A program made the translations under genes and the position numbers. Below are positions 30,594-51,880 of a stretch of 64,000 bases of DNA, piece by piece. The notes beneath the pieces were generated by a model. The model worked only from the letters and a program-made list of their open reading frames with translations. It ran no database searches and was not told the origin of the DNA. The stretch comes from Nautilia sp. PV-1 (GTDB lineage: Bacteria; Campylobacterota; Campylobacteria; Campylobacterales; Nautiliaceae). The DNA is taken from contig NZ_CP026530.1 of the NCBI RefSeq assembly GCF_004006315.1, positions 1,478,501 through 1,542,500 on the forward strand, written 5' to 3'. How positions within the stretch are numbered: the stretch's first letter is position 1; each line of letters opens with the position of its first letter.

Positions 30594-31559
30594 TTATCTC
30601 CCGAAAATTATCAAATCATCCGAACGGTTTGTATGAAGTATCTCAAATTCGTCTTCGCTTCTGAAATTAAACCTGTTGGCAAATTTAGGGCTTACTATAA
30701 ACACTTTCCAGTCCACCGTATGTTTGATTTCGTTATAAAGCCTCTCTCCGCCTTCTATCATTATAAATTTGTAATCGTTCATTTTTTCCAGAGTCTCTTC
30801 GATAAAAACTTTCCTGTTTTTTACGTTAAAAAGAGGGATATCCCTTTCAATACCGTCATTTTTGGAATATATTAAAACATCCGGAGCTTTACCGTTTATT
30901 CTCCTGGCGTCAAGGGTCGGTCTGTCAATTCTGACCGTATTGCCTCCGATTACCAACAGATCTATTTTATCCCTTACCTGATGAACCCAATTAAGTGATT
31001 TATCAGAGCTTATATATCCGCCGGTAATTACCCCGTTCATTGTCAGAGCCAGTTTATAAAACACAAATCTTTTTTGCCATTTTATAAACGGCTCTATTAA
31101 ATCAAAACATCTTTTATCGTTTAATATTTCAACATCAATCCCTGCATTTTTAAGTATTTCCGCCCCTCCTCCGTGCCCTTTTACGGGATCCGGCCATCCG
31201 ATATTTACGCTTTTTGGTTTAAGATGTTTTAAAAGATTGGCACACGAAGGCGTCTTTCCTATATGAGAACAGGGCTCAAGCGTTACAAAAACATTTGCAT
31301 TATTAAAAAAGCCTTTATGGTTTTGCAGTAAAAATTCATGTATTTCATGTGAAGTTTTTAATTCGGGCGTTTTATGAAAAGCCCTAAAAGCTTTCCATAA
31401 CGCATTCACTTCCGCATGGGGTTCTCCCGCTTTTTTATGGACGCCTGTAAAAATCTGATTGTTTACTATTACGGCTGCTCCTACGGCAGGATTTGGATAT
31501 GTTAAAAACTGATATTTCCATGCTTCGTTTATAATCAGATCAAACATGTAATTCTTCAT
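30594..31559 (-). CDS. ribD: Bifunctional riboflavin deaminase/reductase RibD
   Basis: Second and third steps of riboflavin synthesis. Deaminase zinc site HAEV (48-51) with PCSHIGKTPSC (C97, C106), then a reductase domain from about 160 with VIGGNTVRIDRPTLDARR. 321 residues, on the short side. The ATG lies inside an array of 7-bp repeats and has no normal ribosome-binding site. Confidence 0.93.
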   Translation of the reverse strand: MKNYMFDLIINEAWKYQFLTYPNPAVGAAVIVNNQIFTGVHKKAGEPHAEVNALWKAFRAFHKTPELKTSHEIHEFLLQNHKGFFNNANVFVTLEPCSHIGKTPSCANLLKHLKPKSVNIGWPDPVKGHGGGAEILKNAGIDVEILNDKRCFDLIEPFIKWQKRFVFYKLALTMNGVITGGYISSDKSLNWVHQVRDKIDLLVIGGNTVRIDRPTLDARRINGKAPDVLIYSKNDGIERDIPLFNVKNRKVFIEETLEKMNDYKFIMIEGGERLYNEIKHTVDWKVFIVSPKFANRFNFRSEDEFEILHTNRSDDLIIFGR

Positions 31560-31584
31560 TTTTCACTTTACACTTTTCATTTAT
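31557..31584 (-). repeat. Heptamer array between rimP and ribD
   Basis: Four consecutive 7-bp units on the plus strand: CATTTTT, CACTTTA, CACTTTT, CATTTAT. The array includes the ribD start codon and the rimP stop region. Same unit family as the arrays at 35713 and 35947. Confidence 0.7.
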
Positions 31585-33245: not shown

Positions 33246-35696
33246 TTATCCTTCAAAAGAAGCTTTTTCTTCGATTTTTTTATACGTTTCAAGAATATCT
33301 CCGACTTTAACGTCATTGTATCCTTCTACCATAATACCGCACTCAAAGCCTTTTCCGACTTCTTTAACGTCGTCTTTAAATCTTTTAAGGCTGGCCAGTT
33401 TAGAATCGTAAATCACCACACCGTCTCTGATAACTCTTACAAAATCACCTCTGTGAACAACGCCGTCCTGAACGTAACATCCCGCAACTGTTCCTATTTT
33501 AGGAACGCTGAAAACGTCTCTTACTTCAATAGTGGCAGTTACTTCTTCAGTTACTTTAGGCGTCATAAGACCTGAAAGAAGCTCTTTTACGTCATCTATC
33601 AAATCGTAAATAATCGAATACGTTCTGATTTCAATACCTTCTTGTTTCGCTTTGTTTTTAGCTCCGCTTGTAGGACGCACATTAAATCCTAAAATAATAG
33701 CGTGAGGTTCGCTGGCTTTTGCCAAAATAACGTCATTTTCGGTAATGGCGCCTACATCGCTGTGAATGATATCTGCTTTAACCTCTTCATTTCTAAGTTT
33801 TGCAAGGCTGCCTTTAATAGCTTCAACACTTCCCTGAGTATCGGCTTTGATAATAACAGGAAGTTTTTTAAGCTCGCCTTCGAGTATCATTTTCTGCAGA
33901 TCTTCAAGAGTCGCTTTTGTTGATTTTGATTTTTCTCTTTCTTCTAAGAAAGTTTTCCATTTTTCAGCCGTTTCTTTTGCTTCTTTGTCGCTTTCGACCG
34001 CCACAAGGACATCACCTGCCATAGGCACTTCGTCAAATCCCGTAATTTCCGCAGGTTCTCCAGGTTTTACCTCTTTTTTCTGTTTGCCGAGATCGTCAAC
34101 GATTAGTCTTACTCTTCCGTATGTTTTACCGCATACAAAACTGTCTGCTTTTTTAAGCGTACCGTTTTTAACTATTATAGTAGCAACAGGTCCTTTTCCT
34201 TTTTCCACTCTGCTTTCAATTACAACGGCTTTCGCTTTTCTTTTCGGATTGGCTTTAAGCTCCATCATTTCAGCCTGAAGCAGAATAGTTTCAAGTAAGT
34301 CGTCTATACCCTCTCCGGTTTTTGCCGATACGTTTACAAATTCATACTCTCCGCCCCATTCTACAGGCGTAATTCCCATTTCGGCCAGTTGCGATTTAAC
34401 CAAATCAGGATTTGCCTGAGGTTTGTCTATTTTGTTAACAGCCACAATAAACGGAACTTCCGCCGCCTGAGCATGTGATATCGCTTCTCTTGTCTGTGGC
34501 ATAACCCCGTCGTCTGCCGCAACAACGATAATGGCTATATCGGTAACTTCGGCACCTCTTGCTCTCATTTCTGTAAACGCTTCATGTCCAGGAGTATCGA
34601 TAAAAGTAATTTTTTTGCCGTCTTTTTCTACCATATAAGCACCGATATGCTGTGTGATACCTCCGGCCTCTTTTGCTGCTACGCGAGAATTTCTGATTTT
34701 ATCAAGGAGTGATGTTTTACCGTGGTCTACATGACCCATAATTGTTACGATAGGAGGCCTTTCTACCAAATCTTTTTCATCGTCTTGCACTGAATCGTAT
34801 TTTTTAACATAATCAAATTCTGCCAAAGGATCATAAACTTCAACAGGCACTTCAAACTCTTCAGCCAGCGTTTCAATATATTCTTCGCCTAAAAAGTCGT
34901 TTTTGTCTCTTTCTTCGCCGAGTTCTCTTAAAGCTTCGATTACTTCTTCTAAAGGTTTGTTTATTGCTTCTGCAAACTCATAAACTCTTACTTCTTTAGG
35001 TATTGATATTGTTTTGATTTCTGCCTCTTTTTTCTTTTTTTTCTTTCTTTTTTTGATGCCCTCTTTTGTTATTCCGCCTTCACTAGGTTTTTTTCTCTTA
35101 ACGGGCTGTGTTTTTTTCTGTTTTTGCTGTTGAGTTTTAGTTTTTGCTTTTTCTTCAAGCTCATCGTCATTTTTCATGTTAATATCGTTAAAATAAAGAT
35201 CCAGAAGCTCTACCTGGTTTTCTTCAATAACATCCATATCCGCTAAATCGACATTAATCTGAAGCTCTTTTTCTTCTCTTTTTTTAGCCGGCTGCGGTTT
35301 CGGTTTAGGTTTAGGTTTTTCCATTCTAGGCTCAGTTTTTTTAACTTCTTCTTTTTTCTCAGGCTTTTCGGTTTTTTCAGGTTTAGGCTCTGCCTTTTTA
35401 ACAACCTCTATGCCTTTTTGAGTTTTTTTAACAAGGTCGTTAAAACTGCTTCTTCCTCTTCTTCTTCTTTGAGGTTTTTCTTCCTTAACTTCTTGTTTTT
35501 TAACTTCTTCCGGTTTTTTCTCCTGAGTCTTTTTCTCTTTGCCGGCATTTAAAAAATATTCCTGAATTTTTGCAGCTTCCATAGGAGTGATTTCACCCCT
35601 GGTTTTTGCATCTATCCCTATTTCTTTGGCAATATCGACAACCTCTTTCGCTTTTAATCCTAATTCTCTCGCAACAACTGATACTTTTATCTTCAA
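33246..35696 (-). CDS. infB: Translation initiation factor IF-2
   Basis: GTPase that delivers fMet-tRNA to the 30S subunit, 816 residues. N-terminal helix domain ([19 protein letters not shown]), a long Lys/Glu-rich linker (about 55-235), G1 GHVDHGKT near 320-327, DTPGHE, and the C-terminal IF2 domains. The start is TTG with AAGGAG spaced correctly, so even this core factor starts inefficiently; an internal start for a shorter isoform, as in E. coli, is possible. Heads rbfA-HAD-rimP-ribD. Confidence 0.97.
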
Positions 35697-35710
35697 GTAA
35701 ACTCCTTTTT

Positions 35711-35977
35711 TTAAATGTAAAATGGAAAATGTAAAATGTAAGATTTTGCTTTTTCTTTATCCGTTTTGCAAATCTTAGATATATAATTTACAAATTTTTT
35801 TTCGTTTACGCACTCTTTGCATACATAAAAACTTCTGCCTTTCCCTTTAAAAGGTATAAGCTTTTGATTTTCACACTGTAAACGAAAAAGATCGCTTTGT
35901 AAAAACCTGTTGCGGCAGACAATGCACATTCTTACAGGCTTTTTTACATTTTTCACTTTACACTTTACATTTTCCAT
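35711..35977 (-). CDS. YlxR-family (DUF448) RNA-binding protein
   Basis: 88 residues. Core YlxR motifs RMCIVCR (16-22) and [11 protein letters not shown] (about 56-66) are intact. The family sits beside nusA/infB and binds RNA; in Firmicutes YlxR is reported to affect transcription and RNase P. Its first 12 residues and last several residues are encoded by 7-bp repeats, so both ends look recently remodelled. ATG at 35977 lacks a clear ribosome-binding site of its own and directly abuts thrB. Confidence 0.85.
35713..35740 (+). repeat. Heptamer array at the 3' end of ylxR
   Basis: Four tandem units AAATGTA, AAATGGA, AAATGTA, AAATGTA. The ylxR stop codon starts two bases before it and shares its first base. 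Bases 35720-35735 are the exact reverse complement of 35964-35979 on the other side of ylxR. Confidence 0.75.
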
Positions 35978-35981
35978 TTAA
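35947..35981 (-). repeat. Heptamer array at the 5' end of ylxR
   Basis: Five plus-strand units CATTTTT, CACTTTA, CACTTTA, CATTTTC, CATTTAA. It contains the ylxR start codon and the end of thrB, in inverted orientation to the array at 35713. Confidence 0.75.
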
Positions 35982-36859
35982 TTGTATACTTTTACTCCTA
36001 CATTGTCAAATTGTAAGATTTTAACGGTAAAATCTTTAAAATTATCTCTTAGCACATTATATATACTGTATGCGTCGTCTTTATACGCAAGATTGAAAAA
36101 CGTCGAACCGCTGCCGCTTAAAGTCGACATAAGCGCACCTTCTCTGAGAGCAATTTCCCTGACTTTAAAAAGTTCAGGGACCGCTTTCATTCTGTTTTCC
36201 TGATGTATCTTGTCTTCAACCACGTTTCTTAATATTTCAAATTTCTCACTGAAAAACGCGGCCGTAATCATTGACGAACTTGATATATTGGTAACTATAT
36301 CTTTAAGCGAATAATGAGATTTCAGTGCATTCCTGCTTTTTTGAGTGGAAATTGTCCTGTTTGGTATAACAACCACAGCCCTTAAATAAGTCGGAATGAA
36401 TTTTTTTAAAAAATATACACGGTTTTTTCTAAGTTTCGCAACGCAGAATCCGCCTAAAGCTGCAGGTGTAATATTGTCCGGATGCGGTTCGTACTGAAGG
36501 GCCAGATTTATAATTCTGTCTTTTTTATAAGGCACCTGCGCCATTTCGTATGCCGCGGTAATTGCGGCTATTATTACCGCTGATGAGCTTCCGAGTCCTC
36601 TCGAGAGAGGAATTTTATTATTAAATTTAAATCTGAAACTGTCTTCTTTTCCAGTTAAATTTTTATAATGGTCGCTGAATATTTCTACAAAATAATTTCT
36701 TTTCAGCGTTCTTAAATATTCCGCGTTTTCCCCGTAAATTTCTATATTCGTATATTCGCTTTTCGTTATTTCTATTTCATTTCTTAAATTCAGCGCCAAA
36801 CCAAGCGTATCGAATCCAGAACCTAAATTTGCGCTAGTTGCGGGAACCGTTATTACCAT
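35978..36859 (-). CDS. thrB: Homoserine kinase
   Basis: GHMP-family kinase of threonine synthesis, 293 residues. N-terminal VPATSANLGSGFDTLGLAL and the ATP loop RGLGSSSAV near 89-97 are diagnostic; a C-terminal TLSGSGSTFF is also present. AAGAAGGG precedes the ATG. Confidence 0.95.
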   Translation of the reverse strand: MVITVPATSANLGSGFDTLGLALNLRNEIEITKSEYTNIEIYGENAEYLRTLKRNYFVEIFSDHYKNLTGKEDSFRFKFNNKIPLSRGLGSSSAVIIAAITAAYEMAQVPYKKDRIINLALQYEPHPDNITPAALGGFCVAKLRKNRVYFLKKFIPTYLRAVVVIPNRTISTQKSRNALKSHYSLKDIVTNISSSSMITAAFFSEKFEILRNVVEDKIHQENRMKAVPELFKVREIALREGALMSTLSGSGSTFFNLAYKDDAYSIYNVLRDNFKDFTVKILQFDNVGVKVYN

Positions 36860-51785: not shown

Positions 51786-51845
51786 ATTCTGCCATACACT
51801 CTCTGTGCCCAAAAAATTTGCAATTTTTCTGAAACTACATTTTTC

Positions 51846-51880
51846 CATTCTTCATTCTCAATTCTCCATTATCAATTCTT
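51846..51880 (-). repeat. Heptamer array running into the lhgO 3' end
   Basis: Five plus-strand units CATTCTT, CATTCTC, AATTCTC, CATTATC, AATTCTT; the last three encode the C-terminal residues of the downstream oxidase (stop at 51858). Confidence 0.7.

Follow-up and report, generated by a model that had tools for sequence, protein, structure and literature searches.

In hok, the 3' sequence of the mRNA folds back by base pairing onto its 5' end and shuts off translation after synthesis, and the Rickettsia palindromic elements are repeats which are tolerated in frame in protein-coding genes. Similar in anatomy to the locus described here is the intervening sequence (IVS) in the 23S rRNA of Coxiella, in which RNase III cuts a stem of 28 bp and tandem heptamers directly precede the S23p open reading frame (PMC4990558). 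Heptamers near start codons are also found in Beggiatoaceae, in which direct repeats of the unit TAACTGA lie, according to the abstract of that work, mostly just 5' of start codons and have been proposed to have a role in translation (MacGregor 2015, PMC4679880). The ylxR gene of Nautilia sp. PV-1 has heptamer arrays at both of its ends, inverted relative to each other, and is compared here with these systems and with the corresponding loci of its relatives.

The ylxR locus of Nautilia sp. PV-1

The gene lies in the order thrB, ylxR, infB, rbfA, with rimP farther along, in the window, by which is meant the whole 64-kb stretch of DNA that was analysed (Table 1). The predicted protein scored 28.3 bits with the YlxR family PF04296, just above the Pfam cut-off of 26.9, and 21.8 bits with the RnpM equivalog NF047356, under the curated cut-off of 80 bits for that model.

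Table 1 Features of the thrB-ylxR-infB region, with positions in the window
Feature	Position	Strand	Remarks
thrB (homoserine kinase), 5' of ylxR	35978..36859	-	TIGR00191, 262.6 bits; stop adjoins ylxR ATG
Predicted sigma-70 promoter TTGACA-17-TACAAT	35981..36009	-	Within the end of thrB (last codons); 11/12 matches
5' arm, sense heptamer array TGNAAAR	35942..35979	-	Spans junction of thrB stop and ylxR start; contains ylxR ATG 35977-35975; also in relatives
ylxR (YlxR/DUF448, RnpM-like, 88 aa), gene inside the bracket	35711..35977	-	PF04296
3' arm, inverted heptamer array	35713..35741	-	Codes for last YlxR residues; stops ~6 nt 5' of infB Shine-Dalgarno; also in relatives
infB Shine-Dalgarno AAGGAG (35707-35702) and TTG start (35696-35694)	35694..35707	-	Outside the predicted arm helix
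infB (translation initiation factor IF-2), 3' of ylxR	33246..35696	-	PF11987, PF00009

Both arrays have a period of 7, with 5.4 copies in the 5' arm and 4.1 copies in the 3' arm. They contain a perfect inverted repeat of 16 bp (35720-35735 and 35964-35979), which lengthens to 22 nt with 95 % complementarity (35720-35741 and 35958-35979) around a spacer of 216 nt. The ylxR stop codon TAA (35713-35711) has base 35713 in common with the 3' array. The initial annotation, made from the letters of the DNA, had placed the two inverted arrays here, had described the 16-bp repeat as perfect and had put the start codon within one array and the stop codon at a shared base of the other; the sequence reads as it described in all of these respects.

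A chance repeat was ruled out by simulation, by comparison with other small ORFs and by shuffling. The ylxR pair was the single inverted repeat in the window with a score of at least 16 and a spacer of 20-900 nt, and none was obtained in three Markov simulations. Among 95 small ORFs from 464 kb of the genome, ylxR had the best complementarity between start and stop and the strongest bracket, an IVP gene being second. The duplex energy at the junction, -42.5, was reached by none of 500 shuffles, for which the value was -23.0 ± 5.7. A sample of 400 kb from elsewhere in the genome gave two matches clearly above the control, namely the bracket of an IVP gene (L230) and arrays within hypF (L219). 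No Rfam family of structured RNA matched positions 35400-36300 at E values up to 1, and no intrinsic terminator was found in 35600-36200.

If the predicted promoter were used, the 5' end of the transcript would fall inside the 5' arm. The letters of this putative promoter also code for the conserved end of ThrB, and it is therefore treated as a lead only. At 21 of the 30 loci from the wider order, TATAAT or TACAAT occupies the corresponding place 5' of ylxR; in the other families (L097-L126) the TATAAT-like box is mostly 27-32 nt 5' of the conserved YlxR RMC motif, a placing that suggests a conserved promoter directly 5' of ylxR in most of these families.

Conservation, covariation and predicted fold of the arms

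YlxR is present in all 21 Nautiliaceae genomes. Both arms, inverted and forming a near-perfect duplex of 22-25 bp, were found in 17 of the 20 species with a readable locus, neither arm in three (G002, G004 and G020) and one arm only in none; G010, in which the locus is broken by a contig end and a partly decayed 5' arm is visible, was left out of this count. A curiosity of one genome is thereby ruled out, and the supposition that relatives would have the arrays at ylxR, and have them inverted, was borne out.

In a tree of ThrB, YlxR and InfB, G002 and G004 were at separate places within the arm-bearing clade (support 98/96) and G020 was on a long outer branch. The simplest history would be one gain and two double losses, two of the three arm-less species representing independent losses of both arms. 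In these three species ylxR adjoins or overlaps thrB, crosses the infB Shine-Dalgarno and overlaps the infB start, and in other families of the order it usually extends into the infB start. In an inspection by eye for heptamer arms, none was seen in the 30 ylxR loci of the other families. A mobile ylxR was rejected, because the gene stays beside infB both in the array-free loci and in those of the other families. All three strict heptamer matches in the genome of G007 belong to the ylxR pair, and the pair therefore persists where arrays are otherwise absent; it is also kept in G003, G006 and G009, species with almost no other arrays.

The two arms vary together. The summed duplex energy of the species' own arms was -474, compared with -384 ± 15 when arms were swapped among species (p = 1e-5) and with -413 ± 16 when they were swapped within genera (p = 7e-5), a swap which lessens the effect of relatedness but does not remove it. 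In four related g2 species, both sides had changed at 4 of 20 pairs, with 98.8 % of the cells paired, and slid controls gave 0 such pairs. One compensated pair is U-A in G001, U-G in G006 and C-G in G005, and another is A-U in G001 and G-C in its sister G003. The family-wide alignment had both-side changes at 3 of 8 core pairs.

Since M(E/D)N at the start side and FPFSI at the end side of the protein recur, the conservation might be thought to lie in the ends of the protein (MENxK... and ...HFPFSI) rather than in the nucleic acid. Such an explanation is hardly credible: the residues vary at both ends while pairing is kept, changes have occurred on both sides in four related species, and the arm-less species have neither peptide end. 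The constant place of the pair beside the infB Shine-Dalgarno, the loss of the arms together and their persistence where arrays are scarce, as in G007, favour selection on pairing, as judged from the sequences compared. Against a helix are the three species that do without it, and covariation of the arms can also arise from template switching or from gene conversion acting on the DNA.

RNA folds were computed as single-strand models at 37 °C in which translating ribosomes were ignored. The predicted pairing of the arms was 0.93-1.00 in the 17 arm-bearing species and 0.01-0.04 in the three arm-less ones. Averaged over species, the ylxR start was unpaired at 0.21 in the full RNA and at 0.61 in the nascent RNA, a downstream GTG having been measured in G000 and G017; the ATG of Nautilia sp. 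PV-1, computed separately, gave 0.07 and 0.66, respectively. The infB Shine-Dalgarno was, again on average, unpaired at 0.79 with the helix and at 0.56 without the 5' arm. The models are thus in line with the proposal, made in the initial annotation, that the arms pair in the transcript upstream of infB and hide the ylxR start codon. Were most transcription to begin at the predicted promoter, the 5' arm would perhaps be only partly transcribed, and the modelled pairing of the arms in that case falls to 0.47. Cultured Nautiliaceae are thermophiles and the stem is AU-rich, and energies at 37 °C may therefore overstate its stability. The pattern of the folds fits a control of ylxR by fold-back in which infB is spared, and it also fits processing by RNase III.

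Dispersed heptamer arrays and bracketed IVP genes

Strict TGNAAAR matches numbered from 0 to 139 per Nautiliaceae genome, with 27 in Nautilia sp. PV-1 and 139 in G019. After deduplication by hand, 52 array clusters were obtained, 46 on the coding strand, five antisense and one mixed; the arrays are thus ~90 % on the coding strand, and they lie at gene junctions. Each of the five antisense arrays faces a sense array within ~50 nt. Some arrays are in frame within genes, including hypF, an addB-like helicase gene and folC (L219, L155, L140, L056; gene names from reading the proteins), and in the hypF gene of PV-1 (L219:7440-8200) there is an array hairpin inside the coding sequence. Elsewhere in the window, another sense heptamer array (31557-31579) lies at the 3' end of rimP and the start of the next gene, and an array of TGGAGAA/TTGAGAA-like units covers the end of a gene for an oxidoreductase-like protein (51844-51879, minus strand), with no inverted partner seen.

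The arms, which had at first been taken to be particular to ylxR, are accordingly part of a dispersed heptamer family, and their anatomy is common to IVP/S23 elements. According to a model drawn from the initial annotation, the small RNA-binding protein YlxR would attach to the repeats that flank its gene and thereby regulate its own synthesis. In Bacillus subtilis, YlxR/RnpM does modulate RNase P and act post-transcriptionally (PMC11898665), but TGNAAAR arrays are also found around unrelated genes and in hypF, and the ylxR loci of other families are without heptamer arms, which makes this kind of autoregulation very improbable.

The wide dispersal of the arrays, at junctions and even in frame, would also be expected of repeats without function, spread by slippage or insertion at junctions, the arms of which are kept alike by concerted evolution at the DNA level through template switching between inverted repeats. 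That the few antisense arrays have a near sense partner, as if templated from it, agrees with such an origin. However, the ylxR pair persists in the four species almost without other arrays, holds its position relative to the infB Shine-Dalgarno and, where lost, has lost both arms, its spacer of 200 nt is long for template switching, and one compensated position has an intermediate U-G pair. On balance we consider the absence of a function at ylxR unlikely.

The same bracket anatomy, with a heptamer array across the start and an inverted copy after the stop, recurs around genes encoding four-helix-bundle IVP (S23) proteins (TIGR02436). In G018 and G001, two such brackets enclose a TIGR02436 gene between emrA- and emrB-like genes (named from reading the proteins). 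The unit type at emrA-IVP-emrB differs by species and does so on both sides together, being either TGGAAAA or TGGAGAA (L171, L174, L189, L194, L195, L200). This joint change is evidence of a concerted change of the arms, as far as the sequences of these loci go, and it fits a process at the DNA level, such as template switching or gene conversion, that homogenizes the arms of repeats. Most Nautiliaceae TIGR02436 genes are bracketed by inverted arrays with differing unit sequences, and brackets around such genes are also found in other Campylobacteria, on plasmids of Cyanobacteriota and, as single examples, in Bacteroidota, Gemmatimonadota and Azospirillum. In several phyla IVP genes are frequently flanked by inverted arrays of a 7-bp unit that is not the same at every locus, examples being GAGTAGG, GTCAGGA, TGGAGAA and TGGAAAA (L182-L204, L205-L212, L233-L249).

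With a strict ungapped score of at least 18, arms were detected at 17 of 46 IVP loci, compared with 2 of 95 control ORFs, which were ylxR and an IVP gene. The remaining IVP loci have weaker, gapped or no arms, and the association is therefore strong but not universal. Three IVP genes of one genome (G041:C1 584766, 869186 and 1474068) have identical scores, which suggests recent copying of an IVP element, and at G000:C1:1326872-1327156 (L204) an IVP gene with internal stops still has long inverted GTAGTGG-like arms.

Two traits of IVS/IVP elements, terminal inverted repeats that could pair into a single long stem enclosing a small ORF and heptamer repeats at the start of that ORF, are present at ylxR. 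The cargo, by contrast with the four-helix-bundle S23p/IVP of these elements, is YlxR (PF04296), and there is no unit inserted at an otherwise intact site, ylxR being native and only the arms extra. Since it carries a gene other than IVP, and one that occupied the site beforehand, the bracket is not an IVS element by membership; given the anatomy that it has in common with IVP genes and with the Coxiella IVS, it is most readily interpreted as a stem of the IVS type that encloses a housekeeping gene native to the site.

Proposed working and comparison with known systems

With moderate confidence, we propose that the two arrays pair over a long range in the mRNA, as a helix of 22-25 bp with a loop of ~200 nt that is built of heptamer material of the IVS/IVP type and has been kept by selection in the thrB-ylxR-infB transcript of Nautiliaceae, and that this helix closes the ylxR start and spares infB. 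Selection on an RNA helix, and every step of the working that follows, is what we infer from the comparisons above. While the message is being synthesized, the 5' arm alone would be present and the ylxR start would be open. The 3' arm would emerge ~230 nt later, fold back and close off the start of ylxR or, should the predicted promoter be in use, the 5' end of the transcript. The helix would end just short of the infB Shine-Dalgarno, which would remain open. YlxR would thus be made from the nascent message only, and IF-2 would continue to be made.

A helix of 22 bp would also be a possible substrate for RNase III, which could separate ylxR from infB. The helix might even be above all a processing site for this enzyme, at which the ylxR segment is cut out or freed, so that the thrB, ylxR and infB messages decay separately. 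The length of the helix and the position of its arms resemble the stem that is cut in the Coxiella IVS (PMC4990558), the anatomy is that of IVP elements, and RNase III is encoded in 20 of the 21 Nautiliaceae genomes; cleavage would, however, require the arms to be paired on a translated message, and the infB Shine-Dalgarno is very near the helix. Processing as the chief role thus seems rather improbable to us.

A wider interpretation is offered tentatively, as possible rather than probable: the heptamer-array stems of selfish IVS elements may constitute a transferable 'mRNA bracket' module, which in Nautiliaceae would have been domesticated around ylxR and would adjust the amount of YlxR relative to IF-2, either by co-transcriptional closure or by RNase III processing. 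If this were true, a covarying long-range RNA helix, with arms of the same kind of repeat as rRNA intervening sequences, would enclose a whole housekeeping gene in a core translation operon. It would link heptamer arrays near start codons with rRNA intervening sequences and with the functionally uncharacterized IVP/S23 genes, and give a simple, testable prediction of how bacteria could insulate one gene within an operon. Neither a link among these three nor that of the ylxR bracket with IVS/IVP was found in the literature searched, which was mostly without subscription journals and preprints, and a search on in-frame palindromic elements gave no useful match.

Among the described systems, hok also has a fold-back of the 3' onto the 5' end of a message, but it is a separate system, and at ylxR there is no sign of a toxin function or of an opening activated by processing. 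The Rickettsia palindromic elements are likewise repeats in frame, of other sequence, the Nautiliaceae arrays being tandem units of 7 bp. The TAACTGA repeats of Beggiatoaceae are, like the ylxR arms, heptamer arrays near start codons; they differ in being almost all direct, with one indirect repeat, and the abstract that describes them mentions no gene-bracketing pairs (PMC4679880). The 23S rRNA IVS with an S23p/IVP ORF, in Coxiella and Leptospira, has terminal inverted repeats that form a stem of ~28 bp around a small ORF, as well as the heptamers before the ORF in Coxiella (PMC4990558), but the ylxR stem is in a protein-coding operon and its cargo is native, and excision by RNase III would at ylxR be putative. 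In layout the locus also resembles the intergenic IVP (TIGR02436) brackets, which have a sense 7-mer array over the start and an inverted array past the stop, with the TGNAAAR unit itself at emrA-IVP-emrB; it differs from them in that the enclosed gene is ylxR, at its ancestral site with thrB on one side and infB on the other, and in that the bracket is shared between genera, whereas IVP genes are gained and lost.
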